Position numbers and translations under genes: made by a program. From Arthrobacter koreensis (GTDB taxonomy: Bacteria; Actinomycetota; Actinomycetes; Actinomycetales; Micrococcaceae): DNA of 64,000 nt. The notes beneath the pieces were generated by a model. It saw nothing but the letters and a program-made list of their open reading frames with translations, ran no database searches and had not been told where the DNA came from. The stretch lies in the NCBI RefSeq assembly GCF_009193255.1, contig NZ_WACG01000001.1:620001-684000 (forward strand), read 5' to 3'. Shown here one piece after another: positions 18,260-57,561 of this stretch. How positions within the stretch are numbered: position 1 is the first letter of the stretch; each line of letters starts with the position of its first letter.

Positions 18260-18319
18260 ATCGAGATGACAGAAACTGCCCGTTTGAAGCTTCAAACGGG
18301 CAGTTTCTGCCATCTCGAT
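18260..18319. repeat. Dispersed palindromic element, copy 1
   Basis: Near-perfect 60-bp palindrome centred on AAGCTT (18287-18292). Left arm begins ATCGAGATGACAGAAACTGC; one mismatch (A 18269 against C 18310). It lies 22 bases after the Lrp stop and 16 bases from the stop of the convergent DUF6480-like gene. No T-tract. Preceded by a C-rich tract. Confidence 0.95.
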
Positions 18320-18335
18320 TTAGGCGGAGGGGACG

Positions 18336-18599
18336 CTAGTTCTCGTCATGCCCCTGGTCCATGCTCATCTGGTCTTCGGCGGGAGGGGTCTCCCCCGGCG
18401 GAACTCCGCCGCCGGGCTCGAGGCCGGTGATGTTGCCTTCGGCGGGATCAGGGTTCACCCGGCGGCCCTTCTCACCGCTGCCGGCATGGTTCCCGGTGCC
18501 CTCCTGAGTATCCGGACCCTTCTGGGCGGCAGCGTGGTCAGCTTCCTTGGGTTTGTCCGGATTGGCTGGATCATTGTTCGGATCATAGCTTTGCGTCAT
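18336..18599 (-). CDS. Small DUF6480-like hydrophilic protein
   Basis: An 87-residue, highly hydrophilic, Pro/Gly/Asp-rich protein with no membrane segment or signal peptide, predicted disordered. The segment GLEPGGGVPPGETPPAED resembles the conserved motif of DUF6480 proteins of actinomycetes as I recall it. Function unknown. The ATG at 18599 has GAAAGG six bases upstream. A perfect palindrome GTCAGCATGCTGAC sits about 42 bases before the start. Isolated transcription unit, convergent with the Lrp gene across palindromic element copy 1. Confidence 0.7.
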   Translation of the reverse strand: MTQSYDPNNDPANPDKPKEADHAAAQKGPDTQEGTGNHAGSGEKGRRVNPDPAEGNITGLEPGGGVPPGETPPAEDQMSMDQGHDEN

Positions 18600-18640
18600 C
18601 GTGGCCTTTCGGTGATGTCCCGCAAGGGAGGAAACATTTA

Positions 18641-18654
18641 GTCAGCATGCTGAC
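18641..18654. promoter_or_regulatory. Palindromic operator candidate upstream of the DUF6480-like gene
   Basis: GTCAGCATGCTGAC is a perfect 14-bp palindrome. The flanks continue some symmetry (GGAAATG on one side, CATTT near the other). Placement 42-55 bases before the start codon fits a promoter-proximal operator. The binding protein is unknown. Confidence 0.5.
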
Positions 18655-18693
18655 ATTTCCAACCTAGCGGGACTACCGGCGGAGGAGCAATCC

Positions 18694-19944
18694 CTAGCTA
18701 AAGAGCCCCTCCCCCATGAATCCGCCCTCCGCAGCGCCCGGCGGCACGGCGAACACCGCCGAACCGATCGGCGTCGTCCACTCGTTGAGCAGGTCCAGCT
18801 TGTCCAACCGCTGCTGGATCGGCACGAACTGGCGGGTCACATCCGCCTGGAAGGCCACGAAGATCAACCCGGCATTGGAGACGCCGCCGCCCGGCTCCGG
18901 AGCGGCGTCGTAGTTGTACCCGCGGCGGAAGATCCGCTGGCGCGGATCGTCCGGACGCGCACGGCGCATGTGGGCATAGTCCGGGATGACCTTGAAGCCG
19001 AGCCCGGTCACCGCGTCGAAATCCGGTTCGTCACGCTCGGACTCGCCGGTGAGCGGAGCGCCGTTGTCCAGCTTCCGTCCCACCGATTCTTCCCTGCCGC
19101 GGCGGTCAAGCTCGTCCCAGGTGTCCAGGTTCATGGCGATCCGCCGGATCACCATGGAGGTGCCGCCTTCAAGCCACGCCGGGATCTCCGAGTCACCCCA
19201 GACCACCCGGTCGAATTCGGGGCTGCCGGGCAGCGCGTTGGCGCTGCCATCCACCTGGCCGAAGTGGTTCCGCATGGTGGTCCCGGCCTTTTCGGTGCCG
19301 TAGGCGCGCCGGAAGCCCGGCTGCACCCAGCGCACGACGGCGAACGCGCGGCTGTCCTTGAGCAGCATGCGCTGGGCGTGAGCCAGCGTCATCGGATCAT
19401 CGGCGCACAGCTGGAGCACCAGGTCGCCGCCGCTCCAGCGGTCCTCCAGCCTGTCGACGCCGAAGGCAGGCAGCGGAGCCAGCCAGGCCGGGGCCATTTC
19501 CGGCGCGGCGGCGGCCAGCAGCCCTGGCCCGAATCCGAACGTCACCGTCAGCCGCGCCGGGTTCCGGGCCAGCTCCGGTTCGGTGTCTGCCAGCGCTGGT
19601 TCGCCCTGGGTCAGCGCGGCGGCGTCATCACTCAGCATCCGCAGCCAGGACCGGATGCGGTCCCGGCCGATGCCCTCGCGGAGGTCCAGGGCAACGAAAG
19701 CGGCGTAGGCTCCGGGCGGCGTGGCTATGCCGGCCTGGTGCCGTCCATAGAACGGAACTGTCTGGCGGCCGTTGCTTCCGGCCTCATCCAGCCCCGCGCG
19801 TTCCAGCTCCGTGCTTCCCTGCCCGAACCCCCGGCTGCCGGCCAGATGGCCGCCGGCAGCCGCAACCGCGCCCAGGCCCGCCGCGGCACCGCCGAAGAGC
19901 AGGCGGCGCCGGCCCACGCCCCGTGGTGTGGTTTCAGCGCTCAT
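18694..19944 (-). CDS. DyP-type heme peroxidase, Tat-exported (EfeB-like)
   Basis: Dye-decolourising peroxidase of 416 residues. The N-terminus has a Tat-like signal (GRRRLLFGGAAAG). The DyP GxxDG motif appears as FGQVDGSAN and the heme-ligand histidine region follows (YAHMRRARPDDPRQRIFRRG). It would act outside the membrane, oxidising phenolics or handling heme or iron as EfeB does. Here no efeU or efeO neighbours are seen; the start codon overlaps the stop of the PCu(A)C gene (TAATG), placing it in a copper-handling operon instead, so copper-linked oxidative defence is an equally good guess. Confidence 0.88.
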   Translation of the reverse strand: MSAETTPRGVGRRRLLFGGAAAGLGAVAAAGGHLAGSRGFGQGSTELERAGLDEAGSNGRQTVPFYGRHQAGIATPPGAYAAFVALDLREGIGRDRIRSWLRMLSDDAAALTQGEPALADTEPELARNPARLTVTFGFGPGLLAAAAPEMAPAWLAPLPAFGVDRLEDRWSGGDLVLQLCADDPMTLAHAQRMLLKDSRAFAVVRWVQPGFRRAYGTEKAGTTMRNHFGQVDGSANALPGSPEFDRVVWGDSEIPAWLEGGTSMVIRRIAMNLDTWDELDRRGREESVGRKLDNGAPLTGESERDEPDFDAVTGLGFKVIPDYAHMRRARPDDPRQRIFRRGYNYDAAPEPGGGVSNAGLIFVAFQADVTRQFVPIQQRLDKLDLLNEWTTPIGSAVFAVPPGAAEGGFMGEGLFS

Positions 19945-20549
19945 TAGTGGTCCGCAGTCCCATGGGTTTCAGTCCCGTGGGTCTCAGCCCCGCGGGTCTC
20001 AGTGCCGTGTGATCCGGCCCCGTGGCTCCCGGCGTCGTGGCCTTCGCCGGACCCGTAGCTTTCGTTTCCGCCGGCGAAGTCCTTGGCTACGGCGTCGACG
20101 TCCAGAGTGGAGCCGTCAGCCAGCTCGAGGGTGATCGTCACCGTGTCTCCGGCGAGCAGTCCGTCCGTCAGGCCCATCAGCATCAGGTGGCTCGCTCCGG
20201 GTTCCAGGAGGTAGTCGCTTCCGGCGGGGACCACGAATCCGCCTTCGATTTCGCGCATGACCATCGCGCCGTCGTCGTCCATTGCCACTTCATGCAGCTC
20301 CACGGTGGAGGCCGCGGGCGAACTGGCGGCGACGATGGTGAGGTCCTCGTCGCCGGAGTTTTCGAGGGTGCCGAAAGCGCCGGTCATTCCGTCTGCTTCT
20401 GCGGCCTTCGCCCAGGCTCCGGTCATGGACAGGGCTGCGGCATCATCCGGGGCAGGGGCCGTTTCGGCTGCGGGGTTGGAGGAGCCGCAGCCGGTGAGGG
20501 CCGCGGCGGACACGGCAAGGACGGCTGCGGCAAGGGTGAATTTCTTCAT
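19944..20549 (-). CDS. PCu(A)C-type copper chaperone lipoprotein with His-rich tail
   Basis: Periplasm-side copper(I) chaperone that can deliver copper to cytochrome oxidase. The start ATG at 20549 (MKKFTLAAAV) gives a lipoprotein signal with lipobox LTGC. The copper site is seen as LHEVAMDDDGAMVM followed by ASHLMLMGL, matching H(M)-x10-M-x21-HxM spacing approximately. The last 30 residues are a low-complexity tail of HG(T/A)ET-like repeats with six histidines, likely an extra metal-binding tail. 201 residues. A longer frame to 20738 is not supported by the signal peptide. Confidence 0.88.
   Translation of the reverse strand: MKKFTLAAAVLAVSAAALTGCGSSNPAAETAPAPDDAAALSMTGAWAKAAEADGMTGAFGTLENSGDEDLTIVAASSPAASTVELHEVAMDDDGAMVMREIEGGFVVPAGSDYLLEPGASHLMLMGLTDGLLAGDTVTITLELADGSTLDVDAVAKDFAGGNESYGSGEGHDAGSHGAGSHGTETRGAETHGTETHGTADH
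19964..20035. repeat. 15-bp degenerate tandem repeats coding for the His-rich tail
   Basis: Units resembling GTCCCGTGGGTCTCA recur several times in 15-base register, each coding (on the minus strand) a pentapeptide such as ETHGT or ETRGA. The array explains the repetitive tail of the PCu(A)C protein and could vary in length between strains. Confidence 0.75.
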
Positions 20550-20676
20550 GTTTTCGGTACTCCAAAGGTGTGGTCCGCGTTTTTGGGCGCGGGAAAGGGA
20601 AGGGTGCGGCCGTGCCGGAGCACGTCCGCAGAAGGTGCCGCTGGGCGGCGGTGTTTGTGAGGTGCCTGCGTGCCGG

Positions 20677-21297
20677 TTAGGCGTCCGTGCCGCGGCGCTT
20701 CCTGGCCTGCGCAACGATGACATAAACCAGCAAAGCAACGAGGGCGACGCCGACAGCCGTCAGCACCCAGCCCATGGGGCCAAACGAGGTGCTGTCGGAA
20801 GAGGTGGCGGCCTCGGGCGAGGCAGTTTCCGCGGCGGCGGGGTCGCTGGCCGCCGGAGCAGCAGCAGACTCGGTGGCAGCCGGGGACGGGCTCTCGCCGG
20901 CGGGGCCGTTCACGGTGAAGCTGAAGGTGCCGGTGATCGGGTGTCCGTCGCTGGATACCGCACGCCAGTTGACCTTGTAGTCGCCGGCCTCAAGGGCGGG
21001 AACGGACTGGACCAGGGTTTCGCGTGTCAGGACCGGCTCGGACTCGGCGAGGTTGGTACCAGCGGAGCCTTCGACGATGACCTGGTTGCCCAGGTCCATG
21101 AGTTCTGAACTGAAGACCAGTTCAATCTCGGAGGGAGCGGCGTCCAGGACGGCACCGTCCGCCGGGTTGGAGGACACAAGTTCATCGTGCGCGTGTGCCG
21201 GTGCTGCAAGGAAGAGAACCGCTGCGAATGCGGCGAGGAGAGCTGCGGCAAGGAGCGAGGCGCGCGTGCGGGCCTGGCGGTAAAAAGAGGTAGGCAT
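20677..21297 (-). CDS. CopC-like copper-binding protein, membrane-anchored
   Basis: Exported copper-binding protein. A signal peptide ends at AHAHDELV, leaving the N-terminal histidine used for Cu(II) in CopC proteins. The domain continues with SSNPADGAVLDAAPSEIELVF and the second histidine region SSDGHPITGTFSF. After a Ser/Ala/Thr/Pro-rich linker a single C-terminal helix (WVLTAVGVALVALLVYVIVA) anchors it, followed by a basic tail. ATG at 21297 with GGAAAG upstream; 206 residues. It lies between the His-rich membrane protein and the PCu(A)C lipoprotein on the same strand. Confidence 0.9.
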   Translation of the reverse strand: MPTSFYRQARTRASLLAAALLAAFAAVLFLAAPAHAHDELVSSNPADGAVLDAAPSEIELVFSSELMDLGNQVIVEGSAGTNLAESEPVLTRETLVQSVPALEAGDYKVNWRAVSSDGHPITGTFSFTVNGPAGESPSPAATESAAAPAASDPAAAETASPEAATSSDSTSFGPMGWVLTAVGVALVALLVYVIVAQARKRRGTDA

Positions 21298-21352
21298 AAC
21301 TGCTTTCCGTTCCGGGAAGGAACTGGGATTCGTGTGGGTGCGCGGAGTGCGC

Positions 21353-21967
21353 CTAGCTGGACACGAATGCAGCAGGTGGGCCCCGGTGCCGGAGCGTGAG
21401 GAGGGGAATGCCGAGGTTCCGCAGCCCAAGGGGGCGCACGGCCAGGACGGAAGCGATAGGGCGGGGAAGGTGCGCTGGGCGGAAGAACGGCAGCAGTGCA
21501 CCGGGCCGGACACCGAGCGCTTCGATGAGGCGGACCAGTGTCCGTTCGCCGTGGGCAATGATCCACACCGTGGCCACCGCGGCCAGGGCGTGGCTGGCCC
21601 ACATCAGGAGGCCGTGGGAGGGGGCCGGCGCTGCGGCCATTGCCGTGGCAGTTCCGGTCCCTGCCAGTGAGTGGCCTGTGTGGTGGGCGTGGGCGGAACC
21701 CGCATCCACGGCGGCTGGAGCCGAACCGAAGCTGAAGATGAGGTGGAAGAGTCCCTGGCTGAACGCCACGGCGGTGCCGAGCCGGAGCAGCGAGAGCCCG
21801 CGTCCGGCGAGCAGGCAGCTGACCATGCCGGAGACTGCGAGGCAGAACAGGACGAGGGCGGGTTCGGGAGCTGCTCCGCCGCCAAGCATGTGCGACGCAG
21901 CAGCGACGGCCGTGGCCGCGAATGCTCCGGCCCAGCCGCGCACCAAGCGTGCGGCACGCGCTGTCAT
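21353..21967 (-). CDS. His-rich membrane protein of the copper cluster (function unknown)
   Basis: A 204-residue protein of four or five hydrophobic segments that I do not recognise as a named family. Between helices lies a His-rich loop (AHAHHTGHSLAG), and further histidines occur in SHGLLMWASHAL and IIAHGERTL. The spacing suggests metal binding at the membrane. ATG at 21967 has a strong GGAGGA five bases upstream. It is the first gene of the set His-rich protein, CopC-like, PCu(A)C, DyP, so a part in copper uptake or delivery is likely by context only; it is not recognisably CopD. Confidence 0.7.
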   Translation of the reverse strand: MTARAARLVRGWAGAFAATAVAAASHMLGGGAAPEPALVLFCLAVSGMVSCLLAGRGLSLLRLGTAVAFSQGLFHLIFSFGSAPAAVDAGSAHAHHTGHSLAGTGTATAMAAAPAPSHGLLMWASHALAAVATVWIIAHGERTLVRLIEALGVRPGALLPFFRPAHLPRPIASVLAVRPLGLRNLGIPLLTLRHRGPPAAFVSS

Positions 21968-22066
21968 CGGTCCTCCTCAGGCACCGTGTACCGGGCGGGA
22001 TCGCAACCGGCCCTGTAATTCTCGCGAAGTTTCGACGCCGTGTCGAATATCCACTCCCCGTCACCG

Positions 22067-22124
22067 TCGAGATGGCAGAAACTGCACGTTACAGGGCTGT
22101 ATCGTGCAGTTTCTGCTATCTCGA
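22067..22124. repeat. Dispersed palindromic element, copy 2
   Basis: 58-bp palindrome with left arm TCGAGATGGCAGAAACTGCA and centre ACAGGGCTGT. Two arm mismatches. It lies 11 bases beyond the paaG stop and upstream of the copper operon, so it sits between two minus-strand genes. No T-tract. Confidence 0.93.
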
Positions 22125-22135
22125 TGACGGGAGGG

Positions 22136-22930
22136 CTAGCCCTTGAACACCGGCTTGCGCTTCTCCTTGAACGCGGCGAAACCTTCGGCATAGTCCTCGG
22201 TGCCGCACAGCACGCCCTGCGCCTTGTTCTCGTCTTCAACCGATTCCCATAGGCCCAGGCGGGCATCGCGGATCTGCGCCACGAGTTCCTTGGACGCGCG
22301 GAAGGCTCCGGTGGCGCCGGAGGCAACGCGGGCAACCGTGGCCCGGGTGCTTTCGAGCAGCTCATCGGCCGGGAAGACCCGGCTGAACAGGCCAGCGGCA
22401 ACGGCTTCGGCGCCGCTCATCAGGTCTGCTGTGTAGATCAGGTCCAGGGTACGGTGGGCGCCCAGCCGCTCGGTGAAGAGCCAGTGCCCACCCGAATCCA
22501 GGGTTGCCCCCAGGTTCGCGAACGGGGAACCGATCTTCGCATTGTCCGCCACATAGACCACGTCCGTGGCCACCAGCAGGCCAAGCCCGACGCCGAGGCA
22601 GGCGCCCTGGGCGGCCGCGAAGGTGGGTGCCGGGAAGGCTGCCATCTTCTTCAGCAGCGGGGTGACGAGGTCACCCAGGTAGGCATAGGCGTCGTCTTCG
22701 GCCGGTACGACGCCGGAGATATCGCGTCCGGCGCAGAAGGCCCGTCCTTCCCCGCGCAGCAGGAGGGCGCGCACTCCGGCGGCAGCGGCGTCGTCGTAGG
22801 CCCTGGACAGGTCCGCAAGAGCCTGCTCATCCAGGGAGTTGAGCTTGTGCGGGGCCGTCAGCACGATCTCGGCAACGCCGTCGGAGATGCTGAGTTGGAC
22901 CATGGATTCGGTCTGGTTCTGCTCGCTCAT
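22136..22930 (-). CDS. paaG: Enoyl-CoA hydratase/isomerase, probable ring-1,2-epoxyphenylacetyl-CoA isomerase
   Basis: Crotonase-fold enzyme of 264 residues expected to convert ring-1,2-epoxyphenylacetyl-CoA to oxepin-CoA. Oxyanion-hole segments are GRAFCAGRDIS and AAQGACLGVGLGLL; the ATLDSGGHWLF stretch places an aspartate where PaaG has its catalytic one and lacks the paired glutamates of true hydratases. It is the last gene of paaABCDE-G, 14 bases after paaE, which supports PaaG over PaaF; the hydratase role is covered by another gene at 41961-42716. Confidence 0.85.
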   Translation of the reverse strand: MSEQNQTESMVQLSISDGVAEIVLTAPHKLNSLDEQALADLSRAYDDAAAAGVRALLLRGEGRAFCAGRDISGVVPAEDDAYAYLGDLVTPLLKKMAAFPAPTFAAAQGACLGVGLGLLVATDVVYVADNAKIGSPFANLGATLDSGGHWLFTERLGAHRTLDLIYTADLMSGAEAVAAGLFSRVFPADELLESTRATVARVASGATGAFRASKELVAQIRDARLGLWESVEDENKAQGVLCGTEDYAEGFAAFKEKRKPVFKG

Positions 22931-22944
22931 CGGTGGCTTCGTTC

Positions 22945-24105
22945 CTAGGCGTCGTAGTCGACGGTGACTTCGGGGCTGGTGGGGCGGCTCTGGCAGGTCA
23001 GGATGTAACCCTTTTCGATTTCATCCGGTTCCAGTGCGTAGTTTTCTTCCATTTCCACGGTTCCGGAAACAACCTTGGCGCGGCAGGTGCCGCAGACGCC
23101 GCCGGCGCAGGCGAACGGAACATCCGGCCGGACGCGGAGCGCGGCGTTCAGGATCGATTCGCGGGCGTGGGTGGGGCTGGCCACCTTGCCCTGCAGCCCG
23201 TCCAGCCGGAAGCTGATCTCGAAGTTGTCCGCTGACGGGTCCACCTGGACCGGGCGGCCAATCTGGCCCTCGGGCTTTCCGGGCTGGCCCGTGGTGAAGA
23301 GTTCAAAACGGACCTTTTCCGACTCGACGCCGCGCTCGGCCAGGGTGTCCCGGCACAGCTGCACGAGTTCGAACGGGCCGCAGAGGAACCACTCGTCCAC
23401 GTCGCGCGTGGGGAGCACGGACTCGATAAGCGCGGAGAGCTTCTCCGCGTCGATGCGGCCGGAGAGCAGCGGAGAAATACGCTGTTCACGGGAGAGCACG
23501 TGGTGCACGGCAAAGCGGGCCGGGTACTTGTCCTTAAGGTCCGCCAGTTCCTCCAGGAACATCACGTCCATGGCAGCCTTGTTGGCGTAGACCAGGTCAA
23601 AGCGGACGTTCTCCGAGGCTGCGAGGACGGTGCGGGCAATCGAAATTACCGGGGTGATGCCGGAGCCGGCGGCGACGGCGACGAACACGTTCTCATCGGT
23701 GACGTCAATGTCTTCTGGATGGTTCAGGGCCGTCATCGGGTGCTTGGAAATGAAACCGCCGGTGGGGCTCATGACGTCCAGGACGTCTCCGGCCTTGAGG
23801 TTTTCATTGGCCCAGGTGGAGAACTTGCCGCCGAGGTCCCGCTTGATGGCAACCCGGATCTCTCCTGGCCGGGGCTCGGCGCAGATGGAGTAGCTGCGGC
23901 GGATCTCCGCCCCGTCCAGGGTGGTGCGCAGGGCGACGTACTGGCCCGGCAGGTAATCGAAGGAACCGGCCAGCTCTTCGGGAACCGCGAAGGTGACTTC
24001 GATGGCGTCTTCGGTGAGCCGGCGGACAGCACTGACCGTCAGCGGGTGGAAGGCGGTGCGGCGCGAGGCGGGAGCTGCGCCTGCCTCGGTGGTGGAGGTT
24101 GTCAT
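22945..24105 (-). CDS. paaE: Phenylacetyl-CoA epoxidase reductase subunit
   Basis: NAD(P)H-dependent reductase that feeds electrons to the PaaA di-iron centre. The 386-residue protein has a ferredoxin-NADP reductase module (FAD motif RRSYSICAEP, nucleotide region AAGSGITPVISI) followed by a plant-type [2Fe-2S] domain with CAGGVCGTC and a final cysteine in LTCQSRP. Three bases separate it from paaD. Complete and in frame. Confidence 0.95.
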   Translation of the reverse strand: MTTSTTEAGAAPASRRTAFHPLTVSAVRRLTEDAIEVTFAVPEELAGSFDYLPGQYVALRTTLDGAEIRRSYSICAEPRPGEIRVAIKRDLGGKFSTWANENLKAGDVLDVMSPTGGFISKHPMTALNHPEDIDVTDENVFVAVAAGSGITPVISIARTVLAASENVRFDLVYANKAAMDVMFLEELADLKDKYPARFAVHHVLSREQRISPLLSGRIDAEKLSALIESVLPTRDVDEWFLCGPFELVQLCRDTLAERGVESEKVRFELFTTGQPGKPEGQIGRPVQVDPSADNFEISFRLDGLQGKVASPTHARESILNAALRVRPDVPFACAGGVCGTCRAKVVSGTVEMEENYALEPDEIEKGYILTCQSRPTSPEVTVDYDA

Positions 24106-24108
24106 GGT

Positions 24109-24654
24109 TTAGAGCACCTTGAAGTAGTCGAAGGGTTCCTGGCAGTCGCGGCAGACGTACAGCGCCTTGCAGGAAGTAGAGCCGAAGCGTGTCATTTCAC
24201 GCGTGTTGAGTGAGGAGCACTGGGGGCACTTGACGCTCAGGCCCAGCCGCACGGGCCCGGCAGCGGCCCGGCCGGTGGGCGGGGCAATGCCGTACTCGTT
24301 GAGCTTGGTCTTGCCGGATTCGCTCATCCAGTCCGTGGTCCAGGCCGGGGCCAGGACCAGGTCCACCTGGACCTGGCCGTAGCCGGCGGCACGGAGCGCG
24401 GCGGTCACGTCGTCGCGGATGGCGTCCATAGCGGGGCAGCCGGAGTAGGTGGGGGTGATGGCCACCCGCACCGCATTGTCCGCCTGCACCTCCACGGAAC
24501 GCAGCACACCCAGATCCTCGATGGTCAGGACCGGAATTTCCGGGTCACAGACTGTCGCCGCGACATCCCACGCTGCCGCTGATGCGGGGTCCGCGGGGCG
24601 CAGCTGCGTACTGGCTGCGGCGTCGACGGCGGGGGCTGCCTCAGTCTCGTTCAT
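24109..24654 (-). CDS. paaD: PaaD, Fe-S assembly-type subunit of phenylacetyl-CoA epoxidase system
   Basis: MIP18/SufT-like protein needed to mature the PaaE iron-sulfur centre. The DUF59 domain shows VCDPEIPVLTIEDLGVLRSV and TYSGCPAMDAI. The C-terminal extension has two CxxC pairs (KCPQCSSLNT and YVCRDCQEPF) plus a middle cysteine, probably a zinc or Fe-S site. 181 residues. Spaced five bases from paaC. Confidence 0.93.
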   Translation of the reverse strand: MNETEAAPAVDAAASTQLRPADPASAAAWDVAATVCDPEIPVLTIEDLGVLRSVEVQADNAVRVAITPTYSGCPAMDAIRDDVTAALRAAGYGQVQVDLVLAPAWTTDWMSESGKTKLNEYGIAPPTGRAAAGPVRLGLSVKCPQCSSLNTREMTRFGSTSCKALYVCRDCQEPFDYFKVL

Positions 24655-24659
24655 GGCAG

Positions 24660-25478
24660 TTACCAGGTTGCGCCGGGGTGCTGGCGGGCCAGGACCTGGA
24701 GCTCAGCCAGGATGTAGCCGAGGTACTCGCTGTGTTCGCCGCGGCGTCCGCCGCCCGGTGCGGGCTGCACTTCGGGGACTTCAAGCTCGGCTTCAGCCAG
24801 TACGGCGCCTACCTTCTCATCGAAGGTTGCACGGAGCGTGGAGGGTGCGACGGCGATGCCGTCGAGGGAGCGGACCAGGTCATCATCCTCGAACAGTTCA
24901 CCCACGTACGGCCAGGTGAGTTCCAGCGCGCGGATCATGCGGGTGCGTGATTCCTCGGTTCCCTGGCCCAGGCGCAGCACCCACTGGGCACTGTGGTCCC
25001 GGTGGTAGTCGACTTCCTTGACGGCCTTGGCTGCGATGGCGGCCAGGGTCTCGTCCTTGGAGGAAAGCATGGCTGTGTAGAGCTCGTACTGGAAGAAGGA
25101 AACCACCAGCTGGCGGGCGATCGTCTTGGCGAAGTCGCCGTTTTCCTGCTCCACGATGTGCGCGGAACGGTATTCCTCTTCGCCGCGCCAGTAGGCGAGG
25201 TCGTCCTCGGTCTTGTCCCAGGCGGTGCCGGCATAGGTGAGGAAAGACCGGGCGTGGCCAAGCAGGTCCAGGGCGATATTGGAGAGGGCAATGTCCTCTT
25301 CGAGTTCCGGAGCCCGGGCAACCCACCAGCCAAGGCGCTGCGCCAGGATCAGTGCGTCATCGCCGAGGCGCAGGGCGTACTCGGCAACGGCTTCCGGGGC
25401 CTTGGCGTCGGAGGCTGCGATGTCCTCCGGGCGGAGGGCGTTGCCCGGGGTAATGCGGGTGGCGCTGTCCGTGTTCAC
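24660..25478 (-). CDS. paaC: Phenylacetyl-CoA epoxidase structural subunit
   Basis: Ferritin-like helical subunit that pairs with PaaA in the epoxidase. The 272-residue protein includes YALRLGDDALILAQRLG, SNIALDLLGHARSFLTYAG and EVDYHRDHSAQWVLRLG, typical for PaaC. GTG start at 25478 forms a GTGA overlap with the paaB stop; a longer frame up to 25607 belongs to the paaB region and is not used. Confidence 0.94.
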   Translation of the reverse strand: MNTDSATRITPGNALRPEDIAASDAKAPEAVAEYALRLGDDALILAQRLGWWVARAPELEEDIALSNIALDLLGHARSFLTYAGTAWDKTEDDLAYWRGEEEYRSAHIVEQENGDFAKTIARQLVVSFFQYELYTAMLSSKDETLAAIAAKAVKEVDYHRDHSAQWVLRLGQGTEESRTRMIRALELTWPYVGELFEDDDLVRSLDGIAVAPSTLRATFDEKVGAVLAEAELEVPEVQPAPGGGRRGEHSEYLGYILAELQVLARQHPGATW

Positions 25479-25837
25479 AGGTGCTTCACCCCTTCTGACT
25501 TGCGGTAGTACGTGGCGTGCCGGTAGTCCTTGCCCTGCGGGGACTCGAAGAACTGCCCCTTGGCATCGGGGTCGGAAGAGATGATGGCCTCCGCCGGAAC
25601 CACCCACAGGGAAATGCCTTCGTTGCGCCGGGTGTAGAGGTCACGTGCGTTGCGCAGCGCCATGTCGGCGTCGGGCGCGTGCAGCGAACCGGCGTGGACG
25701 TGGGAGAGGCCGCGTGAGGAGCGGACAAAGACTTCCCAGAGCGGCCAGGCCGCGTTGACGCCCGTGTCAGGCTCCACCGAACCGGACGTTGCCGCCGTCT
25801 TGGTGCCGTCGTCGCCCGTTGTCGAACCGGAAACCAT
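25475..25837 (-). CDS. paaB: Phenylacetyl-CoA epoxidase subunit B
   Basis: Small subunit bridging PaaAC heterodimers. The conserved part starts at WPLWEVFVRSSRGLSHVHAG and ends HATYYRKSEGVKHL. A poorly conserved Thr/Gly-rich N-terminus of about 25 residues precedes it. 120 residues, two bases after paaA and overlapping paaC by four. Confidence 0.94.
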   Translation of the reverse strand: MVSGSTTGDDGTKTAATSGSVEPDTGVNAAWPLWEVFVRSSRGLSHVHAGSLHAPDADMALRNARDLYTRRNEGISLWVVPAEAIISSDPDAKGQFFESPQGKDYRHATYYRKSEGVKHL

Positions 25838-25839
25838 GC

Positions 25840-26823
25840 TTATGCCACCTCAGTCTTTCGTGCCTGCTTTGCCGCGTAGGCTGCTGCTGCTTCGCGCACC
25901 CAGGCGCCGTTCTCGTGTGCTTCGCGGCGGCGGGCCAGCCGCTGCGAGTTGCACGGGCCGCGTCCTGCGAGGACTTCCTTGAACTCGTTCCAGTCCAGCG
26001 GTCCGTGCTCCCATTTGCCGGTTTCTTCGTTGAACCGGATCTGGTCATCGGGCAGGGTCAGGCCAAGGACCTTCACCTGCTCGTAGATCATGCCGACGAA
26101 GCGCTGGCGCAGTTCGTCATTGGAGAAGCGCTTGATGTTCCACGCCATGGACTGGCGGGAGTTGGGGGAATCGTCATCCGGCGGGCCGAACATCATCAGG
26201 GCCGGCGCGTACCAGCGGTTGATGGCGTCCTGGGCCATCTGCTTCTGGGCCTCGGTGCCGTTGGCGAGCTCAAGCAGGATTTCGAATCCCTGGCGCTGGT
26301 GGAAGGACTCTTCCTTGCAGATGCGGACCATGGCACGGCCGTAGGGGCCGTAGGAGGCGCGGCACAGCGGAACCTGGTTGCAGATCGCTGCGCCGTCGAC
26401 GAGCCAGCCGATTGCGCCCATGTCCGCCCAGCTGCGGGTGGGGTAGTTGAAGATGCTGGAGTAGCGCGCCTTGCCGGCGATCAGGTCCTCGGTCATCTTC
26501 TCCCGCGGCGTTCCGAGCGTCTCGGCGGCGGAGTAGAGGTAGAGGCCGTGGCCTGCCTCGTCCTGGACCTTGGCCAGGAGGATGGCCTTGCGCTTCAGTG
26601 AGGGTGCGCGGGTGATCCAGTTGGCTTCGGGCTGCATGCCGATGATCTCGGAGTGCGCGTGCTGGGAGACCTGGCGGACCAGGGTTTTCCGGTAGCCTTC
26701 GGGCATCCAGTCACGCGGTTCGATCCGCGAATCGTCGGCGATGACCGCATCGAATGCTGCCTGTCCGGCTGCGTCATCATCCTGCTGGGCCGGGACTGCG
26801 TACAACTCTGTCTGCGTAGCCAT
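25840..26823 (-). CDS. paaA: Phenylacetyl-CoA epoxidase catalytic subunit
   Basis: Di-iron oxygenase subunit that epoxidises the aromatic ring of phenylacetyl-CoA. The 327-residue protein has the ferritin-like core with metal ligands in [16 protein letters not shown] and [15 protein letters not shown], and the family segment [19 protein letters not shown]. The ATG at 26823 ([10 protein letters not shown]) has GAGGTGAC upstream; the frame is open far upstream but not coding. First gene of paaABCDE-G, behind a promoter overlapped by a PaaR-type operator. Confidence 0.96.
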
Positions 26824-26885
26824 AGATGTCACCTCACTGTTTTCCACGGGGCCGCGGACAGCTCCGCGGAAGTCGTTCGGCCAAT

Positions 26886-26934
26886 AATTACCGACCGTTC
26901 GTTCAGGATATGCGTGTGAGCGATCGCACGTCAA
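26886..26934 (-). promoter_or_regulatory. paaA promoter with overlapping PaaR-type operator
   Basis: On the minus strand -35 TTGACG (26934-26929), 18-base spacer and -10 TATCCT (26910-26905) form a good promoter. The operator core ACCGACCGTTCGTT (26890-26903, plus-strand reading) overlaps the -10 and start point, one mismatch from ACCGNNCGNNCGGT. This is classic repressor placement; binding by the TetR protein at 32864-33502 is inferred. Confidence 0.7.
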
Positions 26935-27049
26935 GGCGGATCGCGATTCCTGCGGCCTGCGGCGGTGTGGCAGGCAGGCGCCGTGGACGCGGGGTGTCCG
27001 GGCAGGGGCTACCTTTGAACTAACAGCCCCGGCAAGGAGGAAGCAGAGC

Positions 27050-27607
27050 ATGGCAGCAAGCGGAGCGCCTGAAGGCACCCGGGTGCGTCCGGCCGCCGAC
27101 GCGGCTTCCGCCCCGGGCCTGGCCGCGCACCTGCTGGTGCCCATCCTGCTGGGCCTGCTGGGGTTCTGCGCCGTTGCCGCTGCCGTGGCCTCCACCGGAG
27201 GCACCCTCGGCATCACGGTCAGCGGGCTGGGCGTGGTCCTGACGCTCCTGGCCGCCGCGGCCGCCACGCCCCGGTACCTGCCCGTGGCCCTCGCGGGAAG
27301 GCCCGGGCGCCCGCTGGCCGTCCTGGCCGGCGTCGCACTGGCGCATGTCCTTCTGTACTGGACCACAGGCAGCACCGTCATCCTGGCCCTGCCGGCCTTT
27401 CCGGTCGCTGCCGCCGGCGGCTGCCTCCTGCTCGCAACCTCCCTGTGGTCCCAGTTCCGCCGCGGGCCCGCCGGCCAGGACCCGGCATACACGAGGGGCG
27501 TCCAGATCCGCAGGCCCTTCGCCCACACCCTGGCCCTGGTGGTAGCCAACTGGGTGTTCTTCGCCGCGGCAGGCATGTTCAGCGCCTGGATCCTGCTGGG
27601 CCGCTAG
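27050..27607 (+). CDS. Hypothetical membrane protein, four helices
   Basis: A 185-residue protein with four clear hydrophobic helices ([77 protein letters not shown]) and short basic loops. I do not recognise the family. ATG at 27050 is preceded by AAGGAGGA at nine bases. It stands alone between the divergent paaA promoter and the oligopeptidase gene. Confidence 0.75.
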
Positions 27608-27679
27608 GCACGCTGCTGCGGAGCATAAGCCGCCAGCATAAAGGGGGCGCGGCCCGTCGCGGGCTGACAGACGGATCGA

Positions 27680-27691
27680 TATATTCGGGAC
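27680..27691 (+). promoter_or_regulatory. Leaderless-type -10 for the oligopeptidase gene
   Basis: TATATT (27680-27685) and the six bases CGGGAC precede the ATG at 27692. There is no Shine-Dalgarno sequence in between, so the mRNA probably begins at the start codon. Confidence 0.6.
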
Positions 27692-29875
27692 ATGACTACA
27701 CCTGTTCCCCCGGCCGCGAAAAAAGTCCCCGTCGAACGCACGCACCACGGTGAGACGTTCACCGATGACTACGAATGGATGCGGGAAAAGGACAACCCGG
27801 AGGTGGTTGAGCACCTGAACGCGGAGAACGCCTACACCGAAGCGGTTACCGCGGACCAGGAGCCGCTGCGGCAGCAGATCTTCGACGAGATCAAGGCCCG
27901 CACCGTTGAAACGGACCTGTCCGTTCCTGCCCGCAAGCGCGGCTGGTGGTACTACACCCGCACCGAAGAAGGCCAGCAGTACGCGATCCACTGCCGCACC
28001 GCGGCGCAGGACACCGGCGATCTGCACGCGGACTGGACACCACCCGTCGTCGAACCGGGCGTCGCCGTGCCCGGGGAACAGATCCTGATTGACGGCAATG
28101 CCGAAGCCGAAGGCAAGCCGTTCTTCTCCCTGGGCGGGCTGGCCGTCACCGAGGACGGCAATCTGCTGGCCTACTGCGAAGACAACGCCGGGGATGAACG
28201 CTTCACCCTGCGGATCAAGGACCTGCGCACCGGCGAACTGCTGCCCGACGTCGTCTCCAACGTTTTCTACTCCCTGGCCTTCTCCCCGGACGGCACCCGC
28301 GTCTTCTACACGGTCGTCGATGATTCCTGGCGTCCGTACCAGATCAAGGCCCACACCCTGGGTACGGACGTCAGTGAAGACGCCGTGATTTACCAGGAGG
28401 ACGACGTCGCCATGTGGACTGGTTTCGATCTTTCCGCGGACCGGAAGCAGCTGCTGATCGGCATCAGCTGCTCGGAATACAGCGAATACCGGGTGATGGA
28501 TTTCGACGACGCGTCGGACACCCTCCGGACCCTGATTCCACGCAGCGAGCGGATCCTCTACGAAGCCGAGCCGTTCACCCGGGATGGCGTGCGCCAGTAC
28601 CTGGTAACGCACAACAAGGACGCCCTGAACTCGATGGTGTCCCTGGTGGCCGAGGGCGAGTTCGCCAAGCCGCTGAGCGAGCAGCACTGGCAGACCGTAG
28701 TGGCGCACGACGACGCCGTGCGGGTCAACGGCGCGTCCGTCACCTCCACGCACGTCCTGGTGTCGGTGCGCAAGGACACCACCGAGCGCGTGCAAATCCT
28801 GCCGCTGGCCGGGATCGGCACCCCGGAGCAGGAATCCCCCGCCGAACCCGCCTTCGACGAGGAGCTCTACACCGCAGGCCTGACCAACGCGGAATATGAT
28901 TCGCCGATCATCCGGCTGAGCTACACGTCCTACCTGACCCCTCCGCGGGTCTACGACTACGTGCTGGCCACCGGCGAGCTCCAGCTGCGCAGGGAAACCC
29001 CGGTGCGCGGCGGCTACGACCCCGCGCAGTACGTCGTGGAACGCGACTGGGCCACGGCATCCGACGGCACCCGGATTCCGCTCTCTGTCCTGCGCCGGGC
29101 CGAGGTGGTCAGGGACGGATCCAATCCCGCCCTGGTCTACGCCTACGGCAGCTACGAAGTCTCCATGGACCCGGCCTTCAACATTGCCCGGCTGTCCCTG
29201 CTGGACCGCGGCGTCGTCTTTGTGGTGGCGCATATCCGCGGCGGCGGCGAGATGGGCCGCACCTGGTATGACCAGGGCAAGAAGCTGAACAAGAAGAACA
29301 CCTTCACGGACTACGTGGCAGCCACCGACCACATGGCGGCGTCCGGCTGGGTTGACCCGGCACGGATCGCGGCCATGGGCGGCTCCGCCGGCGGGCTGCT
29401 GATGGGCGCCGTCGCGAACCTGGCGCCGGAGAAGTACCGCGCGATCGTGGCGCAGGTGCCGTTCGTGGACGCTCTGACCACCATCCTGGATCCCAACCTG
29501 CCGCTGTCCGCGCTGGAGTGGGAGGAATGGGGCAACCCGATCACCGATCCGGAGGTGTACCGCTACATGAGCGAGTACAGCCCGTATGAGAACGTGCGTG
29601 CCGTTGATTATCCGCGCATCGCCGCGGTCACCAGCTTCAATGACACCCGCGTGCTCTACGTGGAGCCGGCCAAGTGGGTGGCAAAGCTGCGTGAAACCAC
29701 CACCGGCTCCGAGCCCGTGGTGCTGAAGATCGAAATGGACGGCGGGCACGGCGGCGCCTCCGGCCGTTACGAGGCCTGGAAGGACCGCGCCTGGGACTAC
29801 GCCTTTGTGCTGTCCGCGCTGGATGCCCGGGATCTGCTTCCGGGCGTCAGCTCACCGGCTGCTGCCGCCCGGTAA
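27692..29875 (+). CDS. Oligopeptidase B-like S9 serine peptidase
   Basis: Cytosolic prolyl-oligopeptidase-family enzyme that cleaves short peptides, probably after basic residues. The N-terminal beta-propeller covers about residues 1-430 and the alpha/beta hydrolase domain the rest. The catalytic serine lies in MGGSAGGLLMGA, the aspartate in SFNDTRVLYVEPAKW and the histidine in DGGHGGASGRYEAW. RGGGEMGRTWYDQGK is the family signature. 727 residues, normal for oligopeptidase B. Monocistronic, followed by a terminator. Confidence 0.92.
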   Translation: MTTPVPPAAKKVPVERTHHGETFTDDYEWMREKDNPEVVEHLNAENAYTEAVTADQEPLRQQIFDEIKARTVETDLSVPARKRGWWYYTRTEEGQQYAIHCRTAAQDTGDLHADWTPPVVEPGVAVPGEQILIDGNAEAEGKPFFSLGGLAVTEDGNLLAYCEDNAGDERFTLRIKDLRTGELLPDVVSNVFYSLAFSPDGTRVFYTVVDDSWRPYQIKAHTLGTDVSEDAVIYQEDDVAMWTGFDLSADRKQLLIGISCSEYSEYRVMDFDDASDTLRTLIPRSERILYEAEPFTRDGVRQYLVTHNKDALNSMVSLVAEGEFAKPLSEQHWQTVVAHDDAVRVNGASVTSTHVLVSVRKDTTERVQILPLAGIGTPEQESPAEPAFDEELYTAGLTNAEYDSPIIRLSYTSYLTPPRVYDYVLATGELQLRRETPVRGGYDPAQYVVERDWATASDGTRIPLSVLRRAEVVRDGSNPALVYAYGSYEVSMDPAFNIARLSLLDRGVVFVVAHIRGGGEMGRTWYDQGKKLNKKNTFTDYVAATDHMAASGWVDPARIAAMGGSAGGLLMGAVANLAPEKYRAIVAQVPFVDALTTILDPNLPLSALEWEEWGNPITDPEVYRYMSEYSPYENVRAVDYPRIAAVTSFNDTRVLYVEPAKWVAKLRETTTGSEPVVLKIEMDGGHGGASGRYEAWKDRAWDYAFVLSALDARDLLPGVSSPAAAAR

Positions 29876-29899
29876 GGAGCAGCAAAGAACGACGGCGTT

Positions 29900-29930
29900 A
29901 GCCGGGTGCCCCCGCGGGTGCCCGGCTTTT
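29900..29930 (+). terminator. Terminator of the oligopeptidase gene
   Basis: AGCCGGG (29900-29906) pairs with CCCGGCT (29921-29927), with a partly paired interior, and is followed by TTT. It separates the gene from the convergent dedA-type gene. Confidence 0.75.
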
Positions 29931-29936
29931 GCCGTT

Positions 29937-30743
29937 TCAGTCCTCTTCCGCTGCTGCTTCCGGCCGGGGGCGGGGCAGCGGCCGCGGCTTCCGCACCCCT
30001 TTTTCCTGCGGCGCGCTTTCCGGCTCGGACACGTCTTCCTGCTTACCTGTCCGCTGCGGGCGGTGGCCGGGCCGGAACAGGCCAGCGACGACGAACACCA
30101 GCGTGAGCCCGATGACGCCGAGGAAGATCAGGTCCAGGTTGTCCCGCACAAACGGGACGCGGTCCCCCAGGATGTAGCCCAGCAGCGTGACAGAGAGCGC
30201 CCACACAGCGCCGCCGATGGCGTTGTAGGCAATGAAGGTGGCGTAATGCATCCGCCCCACGCCGGCCACTACCGGGGTGAAGGTACGGATCACCGGGATA
30301 AAGCGTGCCAGCACCACGGCCTTACCGCCATGCCGGGCAAAGAAGGCCTCCGCGCGGTCCACGTTCTCCTGGTGGAAGAACCTGGACTCGGGTCTGTTGA
30401 ACACCACCGGACCGGCTTTGCGTCCGATGAGGTATCCCAGCTGGTCGCCGAGGAAGGCGCTGAGAGCAATCAGCAGGATCAGCACCCAGATGTTGATCTG
30501 CACCGCTCCGGTGGCTACCAGCAGCCCCGCCGTGAAGAGCAGTGAATCTCCCGGGAGGAAGAAGCCGATGAGCAGCCCGGTCTCCACGAAGACGATGCCG
30601 CAGATGAGCAGCACTACCCACGGGCCTATTGCGGGATCAGCCAGGAAAACCTGGGGGTCCAGCCATTCCGGCAGGAGCGAGGACTTTGGCTGCAGCGCAG
30701 CGGGAGCAGCTGTGGCTAGGGACACCACCTCAGGGTAGACCAT
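29937..30743 (-). CDS. DedA-family membrane protein
   Basis: Integral-membrane protein of the DedA/VTT group, linked to lipid carrier flipping and membrane homeostasis. The 268-residue protein has FVETGLLIGFFLPGDSLLF, the FFARHGGKAVVLARFIPVIR signature with conserved Gly and Arg residues, and a final pair of helices. The C-terminal 50 residues are Pro/Arg/Glu-rich and cytosolic. ATG at 30743 with GAAGG close upstream. Convergent with the oligopeptidase gene and divergent from paaI. Confidence 0.9.
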   Translation of the reverse strand: MVYPEVVSLATAAPAALQPKSSLLPEWLDPQVFLADPAIGPWVVLLICGIVFVETGLLIGFFLPGDSLLFTAGLLVATGAVQINIWVLILLIALSAFLGDQLGYLIGRKAGPVVFNRPESRFFHQENVDRAEAFFARHGGKAVVLARFIPVIRTFTPVVAGVGRMHYATFIAYNAIGGAVWALSVTLLGYILGDRVPFVRDNLDLIFLGVIGLTLVFVVAGLFRPGHRPQRTGKQEDVSEPESAPQEKGVRKPRPLPRPRPEAAAEED

Positions 30744-30822
30744 GAGCCTTCGCGCCGACTGGGAGAGCCCTGCTTTTACCCGCGGCGACGGTCGTCACAG
30801 ATGACGGCGGACGCTCATCAAC

Positions 30823-30870
30823 TTGACAGTGATCATGCTCACAGGATTACCTAATGAACATTCGGTAAAG
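30823..30870 (+). promoter_or_regulatory. paaI promoter with PaaR-type half operator
   Basis: TTGACA at 30823-30828 is a consensus -35; a -10 such as TTACCT falls near 30847-30852. AATGAACATTCGGT (30853-30866) matches the right half of ACCGNNCGNNCGGT with three mismatches and would cover the transcription start. This controls paaI-paaK and perhaps paaR. Confidence 0.55.
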
Positions 30871-30886
30871 AAAAGAGAGGGCTTCC

Positions 30887-31363
30887 ATGGCTGACTCCGC
30901 TGTCACCGCCCCGGTCCGTGAAACGGGCCTGGCGCATCCGATCCTCGAACATGATGCGACGTCCGAATGGCTCGGCATCTCTGTCCAGGAACTCGCAGAC
31001 GGCTATGCCGTGATCACCATGGACCTGCGGCCGGAGATGCTCAACGGCTTCTCCATCGCCCACGGCGGCATGGTCTTCGCCTTCGCGGACACTGCCTTCG
31101 CCCTGGCCTGCAACCCTTTCGGTGCCGATTCACTCGCCGGCATGGACACGATCACCGTGGCCTCCGGCGCGGACATCAACTTCATCTCCTCCGCCCGTGC
31201 CGGCGACAAACTGCGGGCAGAAGCCAGCCGGCGGGCTGCGGCAGGCCGCAGCGGCGTCTTCGACATTGAAGTCACCGCCCAGTCCCCCGACGGCACCACC
31301 CGCGTCATCGCCGAGTTCAGGGGCCGTTCCCGCACCATTCCCAACCCGGCGCGCCGCAGCTAG
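30887..31363 (+). CDS. paaI: Hydroxyphenylacetyl-CoA thioesterase
   Basis: Hot-dog thioesterase that removes dead-end or toxic CoA esters during phenylacetate breakdown. The 158-residue protein has the PaaI signature NGFSIAHGGMVFAFADTAFA with the catalytic aspartate, then GADINFISSARAGDKL. ATG at 30887 with AGAGAGGG upstream. First gene of paaI-paaK, with paaR just beyond. Confidence 0.94.
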   Translation: MADSAVTAPVRETGLAHPILEHDATSEWLGISVQELADGYAVITMDLRPEMLNGFSIAHGGMVFAFADTAFALACNPFGADSLAGMDTITVASGADINFISSARAGDKLRAEASRRAAAGRSGVFDIEVTAQSPDGTTRVIAEFRGRSRTIPNPARRS

Positions 31364-31450
31364 GGTCCAGGCCCGCGGGATCCCGCTCTTTCGTTTTCCC
31401 TTCCCACACTGCACAATCAAGCCCCACCCCTCTCCCAAAGGTTCTACGCA

Positions 31451-32794: not shown

Positions 32795-32810
32795 CGGCCG
32801 ATGTGATCAC

Positions 32811-32857: not shown

Positions 32858-32863
32858 ATCCAG

Positions 32864-44054: not shown

Positions 44055-44110
44055 CGAGAGGGCAGATAAGGCTCGTTTGGGACCTCAAAAGAGCCTTATC
44101 TGCCCTCTCG
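44055..44110. repeat. Dispersed palindromic element, copy 6 (divergent variant)
   Basis: Perfect 20-bp arms: CGAGAGGGCAGATAAGGCTC (44055-44074) with its complement at 44091-44110, and a 16-base partly paired loop. It shares CGAGA, GGCAGA and CGTT positions with the other copies, but differs elsewhere. It lies between divergent genes (paaJ and the VOC gene), so it cannot be a terminator for either. Confidence 0.88.
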
Positions 44111-56328: not shown

Positions 56329-56334
56329 GACGCC

Positions 56335-57471
56335 ATGGAACTGCTTCCAGTCCACACGCCGTCCGGCTTCAACGCCGGGGACCTGCTGCCGCCGCTCGCC
56401 GCTGCGCTGGCCGGGGAAGGCCCCGCCGTCGCGCCGCATGCCGATCCGGCGCAGACCTTCACCGGGGAACTGCCCAATGACGACGTCGCGCTGGTGATCA
56501 GCACCTCAGGATCCACCGGCACACCCAAGCAGACCATGCTCAGCACCGATGCCTTGGCGGCTTCTTCGATGGCCACCGCGATGCACCTGGGCCAGGACGG
56601 CCAGTGGCTGCTGGCGCTGCCGGTGCACTACATTGCCGGCGTGCAGGTGCTGGTGCGGTCGCTCTACGCCGGAACTGAACCGGTGCTGATGGACACGGGT
56701 GCCCCGTTCAGCCCCGAGGCCTTCACGGCCGCCGCGCAGGCCATGACGGACCGGACCCGGCTCACTTCCCTGGTGCCCACCCAGCTGCACCGGCTGCTCA
56801 CGGATCCCGCTCCGGACACGCTGGCGGTGCTGCGCCGCTTCGACACGATCCTGCTCGGCGGTGCCGCCGCCAGCCCGTCGCTGCTGGCGCAGGCCCAGGA
56901 CTCCGGACTTCACGTGGTGCGCACCTACGGCATGAGCGAGACCGCCGGCGGCTGCGTGTACGACGGCGTTCCGCTGCCCGGCGTGGAGGTCCAGGAAGAC
57001 CAGGGCCGGCTTTGGATCGCCGGGGACATGCTCGCGGAAGGTTATCTTGGTGCGCCTGAACTGAGCGCCGAGCGGTTCGCCTTCCATTCCGGCAAGCGCT
57101 GGTTCCGCACAGATGACACCGGTTCCGTGTCCGGGGACGGCGTCGTCTCGGTGTCCGGCCGGCTCGACGACGTGATCGTCACCGGCGGGGTGAAGGTCTC
57201 CGGCGCTGCAGTTGCCGCAGCCGCCGAACAGCTTCCCGAGGTGCACCAGGCGGTGGCCATGGGGCTCGATGACCCGGAGTGGGGCGCGGTGGTGGGAATC
57301 GTCGTCGTCGGGTCCGTGGACACCGGCAGGCTGCGCAGCGCCGTCCGCTCCGCACTCGGCGCGCCCGCTGTTCCGAAGGTAGTGGTGGAGCTGGAACGGC
57401 TTCCCCTGCTGCCCGGCGGTAAGACCGACCGTCTGGCTGTGCGCCAGCTGCTCGCCGCCGCCCGCGGTTAG
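56335..57471 (+). CDS. menE: o-Succinylbenzoate-CoA ligase
   Basis: AMP-forming ligase activating o-succinylbenzoate. The compact 378-residue protein (short, as usual for actinomycete MenE) has the P-loop STSGSTGTPKQTMLS, RTYGMSETAGGCVYDG, FRTDDTGSVSGDGVVSVSGR and the catalytic lysine in PLLPGGKTDRLAV. It lies between menB and menA, six bases after menB. Confidence 0.94.
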   Translation: MELLPVHTPSGFNAGDLLPPLAAALAGEGPAVAPHADPAQTFTGELPNDDVALVISTSGSTGTPKQTMLSTDALAASSMATAMHLGQDGQWLLALPVHYIAGVQVLVRSLYAGTEPVLMDTGAPFSPEAFTAAAQAMTDRTRLTSLVPTQLHRLLTDPAPDTLAVLRRFDTILLGGAAASPSLLAQAQDSGLHVVRTYGMSETAGGCVYDGVPLPGVEVQEDQGRLWIAGDMLAEGYLGAPELSAERFAFHSGKRWFRTDDTGSVSGDGVVSVSGRLDDVIVTGGVKVSGAAVAAAAEQLPEVHQAVAMGLDDPEWGAVVGIVVVGSVDTGRLRSAVRSALGAPAVPKVVVELERLPLLPGGKTDRLAVRQLLAAARG

Positions 57472-57475
57472 GCCA

Positions 57476-57486
57476 CCCCCCCCCCC
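57476..57486. repeat. Poly-C tract of 11 bases
   Basis: Eleven consecutive C residues just after the menE stop, followed by more C/T-rich sequence leading into palindromic element copy 5. Homopolymer length may vary. Confidence 0.9.
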
Positions 57487-57505
57487 GCTCCCCCCTCTCC
57501 CCCAT

Positions 57506-57561
57506 CGAGATGGCAGAAAGTGCACGTCTCAGCGCTGAGACGTGCACTTTCTGCTATCTCG
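57506..57561. repeat. Dispersed palindromic element, copy 5
   Basis: 56-bp palindrome centred on AGCGCT with one arm mismatch. It reads GCAGAAAGTGCACG where the others read GCAGAAACTGCACG, and the opposite arm changes to match (GCACTTTC). It starts 34 bases after the menE stop and upstream of menA. Confidence 0.94.

Follow-up and report, generated by a model that had tools for sequence, protein, structure and literature searches.

The 64,000-nucleotide stretch of Arthrobacter koreensis DNA considered here (the "window"; contig NZ_WACG01000001.1, positions 620,001 to 684,000) carries six palindromes with long inverted arms, most of them just beyond the ends of genes (Table 1), and these six palindromes are members of one repeat family. 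All were found where a preliminary description, made from the letters alone, had placed them, and independent gene calls agree with it that five of the six lie 11–34 nt 3′ of a stop codon and that three (18262, 33537 and 38744) lie between convergent genes. Five copies had been described as typical; the sixth does belong to another subtype, yet it is built in the same 56-bp frame as the others. Hairpins in which at least 18 of 20 positions pair number eight in the window, the six elements and two unrelated ones, and none was present in 100 dinucleotide-preserving shuffles of it.

Table 1. Palindromic elements and other features of the window (positions are those of the 64,000-nucleotide stretch; G032, A. 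gandavensis; G100, A. citreus).
Feature	Position	Context	Remarks
T1 element, 56 bp	18262-18317	Convergent genes, whose stop codons lie 24 and 18 nt away	Also present at the orthologous positions of G032 and G100
T1 element, 56 bp	22068-22123	Codirectional genes; 12 nt 3′ of a stop codon	Inner stem imperfect
T1 element, 56 bp	33537-33592	Convergent genes: TetR-type regulator / aldehyde dehydrogenase/MaoC protein	
T1 element, 56 bp	38744-38799	Convergent genes	Inner types differ between halves; same sequence in G032
T3 element (CGAGAGGGCAGATAAGGC), 56-bp frame	44055-44110	Flanking genes called divergent	
T1b-like element (AAAGTGC variant), 56 bp	57506-57561	34 nt 3′ of a stop codon	
Strong hairpin outside the family	7973-8016		Probably an ordinary terminator in the same kind of slot
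Strong hairpin outside the family	36958-37000	Between genes called convergent	Probably an ordinary terminator in the same kind of slot
SAM-IV riboswitch (Rfam RF00634, 49.5 bits)	38196-38329	Upstream of the small open reading frame below	
Small open reading frame	38346-38732	Stops just before the element at 38744	No Pfam match

The family extends across the 3.55-Mb genome. With up to two mismatches allowed, the T1 arm, CGAGATGRCAGAAACTGC, matches 58 times in forward and 57 times in reverse orientation, and not once in a reversed control; the genome-wide search proposed at the outset thus found the arm to be abundant and not absent elsewhere, at a copy number of about 80–100 rather than the hundreds then envisaged. 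A scan of 991,807 bases of the same genome for hairpins of any kind that pair at 18 or more of 20 positions returned 104 and exposed a second subtype, T2, with the arm CGAGAGGCCAGTTACGGC (28 forward and 28 reverse matches); T3 and T4 are intermediates between T1 and T2. A covariance model built from 36 copies gave at least 146 matches on the two strands of this genome, at no fewer than 74 places and with one of them partial, from 150 of 1,089 candidates scored; counts from this model are lower bounds throughout, as 150 candidates were scored out of 543 to 1,186 per genome.

All subtypes share the frame CGANAKKNCAG-N34-CTGNMMTNTCG, and its length is rigid. In an arm scan that left the spacing free between 30 and 46, 79 of 81 A. 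koreensis elements were exactly 56 bp long, as were 69 of 74 in the A. gandavensis stretches and 36 of 38 in the A. citreus stretches, where overlapping stretches may count some copies twice. The 81 elements carry five mismatches or fewer; no candidate had 6–8 and 70 had 9–12, so that at up to 12 mismatches the real sequence held 151 candidates and the reversed control 115. The elements end in CGAGA/TCTCG, and the ideal fold is a 26-bp stem with a 4-nt loop. In T1 an A-rich and a T-rich part (CAGAAA/TTTCTG) flank a GC-rich core. The first account had seen no T-tract; this stands for T2, which lacks a U-tract, but T1 does have the short T-rich TTTCTG after its GC-rich inner stem, lying within the stem and itself paired with the A-rich stretch. 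Both sides had changed at 11 of the 26 pairs among 36 sequences, a level reached in none of 500 shuffles (which ignore relatedness), and the inner 8 pairs are perfect in 74 of 181 copies. Just outside the 81 sampled A. koreensis elements, positions −9 to −3 from each end are 54–79% C when read towards the element and G-rich on the other side, and the commonest border is CAT followed by the CGAGA of the element. Two other hairpins of this genome, at C5:540423 and C5:1308463, have AAGAAACCGCCCGTTTGA- and CAAAAAGTGCCCGTTTGG-type stems and a T1-like centre without the T1 outer arms, and are possible ancestors or relics.

The placement of the elements follows gene ends. Genes were called with a simple caller rather than a standard one, and the stretches were chosen around elements, which inflates the occupancy of gaps. 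Within 0.99 Mb of A. koreensis, 38 of the 81 elements lie between convergent genes, 32 between codirectional and 8 between divergent ones, with 3 inside called open reading frames (ORFs); the same classes number 36, 30, 5 and 1 in A. gandavensis and 19, 13, 3 and 1 in A. citreus. The median distance from the stop codon is 13 nt for the convergent A. koreensis elements (to the nearer stop) and 19.5 nt for the codirectional ones, and 12–19 nt 3′ of the stop in the two relatives. The sampled A. koreensis stretches contain 85 convergent gaps of at least 30 nt; elements occupy 38, and in 41 of the 47 element-free gaps there is an unrelated hairpin at least as stable as −25 kcal/mol. Median hairpin energies are −33 kcal/mol over these 47 gaps and −34.9 for the elements. 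Both flanks are shorter than 30 nt in 29 of the 38 convergent element gaps, which leaves little room for a second terminator, though in 5 of the 38 a hairpin of −20 or stronger remains in a flank. At such gene ends, family members and ordinary hairpins are equivalent occupants of one slot.

This equivalence can be followed at a single convergent site, between the genes for inositol-1-phosphate synthase and formate-tetrahydrofolate ligase, which was matched in all 29 genomes of the genus and for which 28 gaps were compared. A family element was found there by scan in A. koreensis (G000), A. gandavensis (G032), A. citreus (G100), two other species (G232 and G312) and G213; G131 carries a 56-bp family member, with which the signature described below agrees, and G058 a related long hairpin. 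The 21 genomes without a family-like hairpin comprise 16 with another strong hairpin (G194, G183, G080, G249, G117, G146, G241, G172, G223, G279, G306, G318, G204, G286, G257 and G265), one with a GC-rich structure (G272), three with a short gap and weak structure (G159, G293 and G323) and one in which the site is incomplete (G300). Some inner sequences (TCCCAG..) are alike in genomes with and without the element, and part of the hairpins at this site may be homologous across the two groups.

The common frame, allowing at most one mismatch, also served as a signature blind to subtype. It occurs at 79 places in A. koreensis, 58 in G032, 52 in G100, 40 in G232, 39 in G312, 27 in G213 and 14 in G131. 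Farther away in the genus, the clade of G241, G172, G257 and G265 has one or two signature copies per genome with very different arms (CGAAAGTGCAGTACTTAC and similar), and the four of these copies that were tested pair well at the positions left free by the signature. Covariance-model matches at E ≤ 0.001 were obtained in 17 of the 29 genomes and are numerous in five; in a one-locus tree these five fall into a clade of eight with the low-copy G080, G183 and G194, and the middle-to-low G213, G131 and G058 fall into another with G323 and G300. Outside the genus the signature gave 11 matches in 9 genomes and its reversed control 8 matches in 8 genomes; given a control of like size, we accepted matches in other genera only where inner pairing exceeded chance. 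Copies in G378, G391, G029 (two) and G158 were accepted on this basis, their 15 unconstrained inner positions pairing beyond chance (P ≤ 0.0015 each), and the other 6 matches were not. A search across the order (396 genomes, 2 mismatches) gave matches in 4 genomes and none outside the family Micrococcaceae; in the one from another genus, G057, only 4 of 15 inner positions pair. Within the genomes searched, the palindrome family is confined to the Micrococcaceae and nearly to one genus. Copies are scarce in one large contig each of A. koreensis (C6, 4 seen and 13.5 expected, P 0.003) and A. gandavensis (C9, 4 and 18.4), and in G312 a 640-kb gap among the T2 places listed (C1, 1.38–2.02 Mb) lies roughly opposite dnaA.

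Orthologous sites record both conservation and replacement. Compared with A. gandavensis, 58 of the 81 A. koreensis elements lie in the same gap, 5 are absent, 4 are ambiguous, with long gaps, and 14 are uncovered; with A. citreus the numbers are 26, 5, 3 and 47. Sampling around A. koreensis elements undercounts absence at such sites, and orthologous copies are not independent of one another. In the adjacent intergenic DNA, ungapped identity has dropped to about 45% at a distance of 14 nt, random pairs of flanks having about 30%. Over the inner 20 nt of 38 same-type T1 pairs, identity is 0.943 between orthologs and 0.644 between non-orthologous copies, and these T1 loci therefore descend vertically. 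Divergence in the 38 pairs, which were preselected for at most 9 differences, is 0.9% in the core (positions 9–18), 4.6% in the inner stem, 9.9% in the loop and 18% at positions 7–8; since the core diverges less than an inner stem that is equally paired, it is constrained for sequence and not only for pairing.

The 79 orthologous pairs of equal length form two groups: 64 pairs differ at no more than 9 positions and the other 15 at 13–22, with nothing between. Scored by subtype, in a set that differs from these 79 pairs, a switch between T1-type and T2-type was seen in 15 of 84 orthologous comparisons. A 1.4-kb deletion accompanies one of these switches (854664 in G032). Of the remaining 14, 4 keep the distance from element to conserved flank unchanged to within 1 nt on both sides and 7 do so on one side or both; the numbers for the 69 same-type comparisons are 16 and 52. 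Exact in-place exchange of subtypes is not claimed, as positions are kept on both sides about equally often but the flanks are more altered at switched sites (median unaligned 36 vs 15 nt); we therefore speak of replacement at the site rather than of a proven precise exchange. An exchange of halves between copies is likewise not claimed, both halves being known as perfect types elsewhere in only 4 of the 39 copies with at least 3 inner mismatches. Ten absences (7 A. koreensis sites, two relatives) gave no clean empty site with a readable insertion boundary; at C5:1320866 half an element is left in A. gandavensis, and the absence at C5:856090 in the same species belongs to a 1.4-kb deletion.

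On the grounds of their position, their symmetry, their strength and the way ordinary hairpins can take their place, we favour, as the probable interpretation, that these palindromes are dispersed bidirectional transcription terminators (3′-end hairpins) belonging to a single repeat family with a rigid 56-bp frame. Like intrinsic terminators, they are strong hairpins shortly 3′ of stop codons, favoured between convergent genes. An element transcribed from either side would fold into much the same hairpin, typically 10–20 nt past the stop codon, and this hairpin would end or protect the transcript. In T1, the A-rich and T-rich stretches around the GC-rich core would act as in ordinary two-way terminators; in T2, transcripts may end by the hairpin only ("I-shaped") or with the assistance of Rho. 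Among the several roles first listed for the palindromes, position and the occupants of the slot elsewhere thus favour that of a terminator or 3′-end hairpin, and the classical repetitive extragenic palindromic (REP) element is disfavoured.

Several observations weigh against terminators as the whole explanation. A simple terminator scan of 18001–38000 lists none of the three elements there, T2 is without a U-tract, the inner 8 pairs are imperfect in 107 of 181 copies, and 8 A. koreensis copies lie between genes called divergent. Selection at the RNA level would predict a preference for G-U, but G-U mispairs are not in excess over A-C mispairs (44 vs 37, p = 0.51; 72 codirectional copies, orthologs pooled). 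If the elements were plain terminators, there would be no need for divergent subtypes to keep one exact length or for the core to diverge less than the equally paired inner stem, and the T1–T2 replacement at orthologous sites would also be left unexplained. From the fixed length, the core constraint, the U-less T2 and the missing G-U preference we infer that something may read the duplex, either a factor that puts the elements to use or the agent by which they are spread and swapped.

One candidate is a DNA-binding protein with sequence specificity (a nucleoid protein, an organiser of replication or of the chromosome, or an aid to termination) that would read two inverted half-sites at fixed spacing, the hairpin being secondary. 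It would account for a frame held fixed across subtypes with unrelated inner sequence, the distant clade included, for the constraint on core 9–18 at vertically inherited loci and for the absent wobble signal, and in G312 the 34 T2 places lie nearer to the dnaA contig start than a uniform distribution would have them (Kolmogorov-Smirnov p = 0.03). We nevertheless consider this protein an unlikely primary explanation: the inner stem covaries too, the elements keep closely to gene ends and to the terminator slot, as would not be required of a nucleoid site, and no candidate protein was found. Tentatively, the elements might instead be chromosomal cassettes of a new kind, with a dedicated factor that reads the 56-bp palindrome in its duplex or cruciform state by sensing the CGAGA..CAG termini and their exact spacing; this factor or a partner would install and swap cassettes at gene ends without an HUH transposase, and the host would use them as two-way terminators. 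The more altered flanks at switched sites lower the odds of this doubtful proposal; if it were true, terminators would be modular, swappable and copied around the genome.

We regard as distinctly unlikely a non-autonomous mobile palindrome, REP-like or akin to miniature inverted-repeat transposable elements, that is neutral or mildly harmful and tolerated mainly 3′ of stop codons, so that the placement would be a survival filter. Many similar copies do stand at unrelated loci and are abundant mainly in two clades of one genus; the change of subtype at 15 of 84 orthologous sites and the bimodal sequence distances also speak for it, and the more altered flanks at switched sites are what fresh insertions would leave. 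Most A. koreensis sites, however, are common to another species, the empty sites examined have no clean boundary, and no parent element was found. The gene that the preliminary description suggested looking for, a Y1/RAYT transposase (PF01797), was detected in none of the 29 congeneric genomes, A. koreensis included, and in 5 of 14 positive-control genomes, and RAYT/IS200 was rejected as the mobiliser; a classical REP is also disfavoured by the length (56 bp, not 20–40) and by the lack of a GTAG end. Flanking dinucleotides give no convincing support for a target-site duplication: AT stands on both sides in 29 of 81 copies, where it also extends the palindrome, and in the 16 copies without AT on either side the flanks are equal in 2 and palindromic in 4. 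A plasmid or phage source found no support: one T1 element (window 18256–18323), the only subtype used as a query, had no counterpart among 72,556 records of plasmids and 50,697 of phages. The arms occur as 56-bp pairs, seven pairs of copies are less than 2.5 kb apart, and the sole gene typed between such copies encodes phosphoglucomutase. A purely mutational origin, in which template switching keeps a terminator hairpin self-complementary and ectopic conversion homogenises the copies, is highly improbable: it would suit the many perfect inner stems that differ between copies and the replacement of subtypes at orthologous sites, but in 31 of 38 cases the inner sequence is matched best by the ortholog, which makes homogenisation at those sites a rare event, T1 and T2 would seem to share too little sequence for ordinary homologous conversion, and the fixed frame in distant clades is left unexplained.

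The initial impression that no described family has this arm holds for Rfam and for the open-access literature as far as its text was covered. The only window match at Rfam gathering score is the SAM-IV riboswitch, with none at the elements, and sub-threshold matches at 18200–18380 are mostly to microRNA-precursor models far below their cut-offs; in the open-access PMC text covered, five arm or core strings were absent, and nothing describing this kind of family was found for Arthrobacter or Micrococcaceae. A general REP survey contains, in the parts consulted, one table row for one Arthrobacter genome. According to the sections consulted of these and the following sources, REPs and the BIME and REPIN units built with RAYT (GTAG REPs; PMC2817692, PMC3116915, PMC1525189, PMC3733652) resemble the Arthrobacter elements in being short, palindromic, extragenic and present in many copies, and insertion sequence (IS) elements may insert into them; the family studied here is indeed a multi-copy extragenic palindrome, with its 79 signature places and 78 of 81 sampled copies outside called ORFs. 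REPs, however, measure 20–40 bp and carry GTAG and a RAYT, whereas the Arthrobacter unit is symmetric, 56 bp long, without a GTAG or CGTC tag and without a Y1 transposase in the genus, and BIME-like arrays were not seen among the sampled copies. The CGTC-tagged REPs (PMC3733652) are likewise intergenic palindromic repeats for which no transposase was identified, but are 20–40 bp long with a CGTC end; that text contains no occurrence of Arthrobacter, Actinobacteria, Micrococc-, Rothia or Kocuria. The uptake-signal terminators of Neisseria and Pasteurellaceae (Kingsford et al., 2007; PMC1852404) also form terminator hairpins from inverted pairs of a repeated conserved motif. That motif is about 10 nt long and generally occurs at least 1000 times, in contrast to about 80–100 pairs per genome here, nearly every arm being paired at one spacing; DNA uptake sequences number about 1000 or more, and A. 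koreensis has 58 forward and 57 reverse T1 arms, with a spacing of 38 in 79 of 81 sampled elements. U-less terminators of high-GC actinobacteria (I-shaped or HS-U-lack; PMC8269248) share strong hairpins, a poor or missing U-tract and known bidirectional ends, but are described in the text consulted as a class of transcript ends rather than as a family of repeats with common sequence and a fixed length. The repetitive hairpin elements of sponge mitochondria (PMC2800124) are intergenic families as well, with two types differing by a few complementary substitutions; they are organellar and of several lengths, and a conserved frame is not reported in the parts consulted.

We place the Arthrobacter family with a known kind, the intergenic palindromic repeat that would serve as a 3′-end hairpin. 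The evolution of terminators is usually regarded as local; in this case they seem to come from a repeat family, one whose length is fixed to the nucleotide and in which subtypes have replaced one another at orthologous sites. The family offers a testable system for the spread of palindromic repeats without RAYT and for transcript ends without clear U-tracts in high-GC actinobacteria, and its elements could serve as compact two-way terminators in Arthrobacter engineering.

Two half elements of the A. koreensis genome lie next to IS-like ends. At locus L144 (G000:C11) a transposase gene at 156–1274 with HTH_38 and rve domains, which we take to be of the IS30 type, ends about 40 nt before a T1 element at about 1314–1339, of which only the right half is left. 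A similar half element follows a similar IS-like end at about 430–460 of L143 (G000:C8), and IS elements may target the centre of the palindrome.

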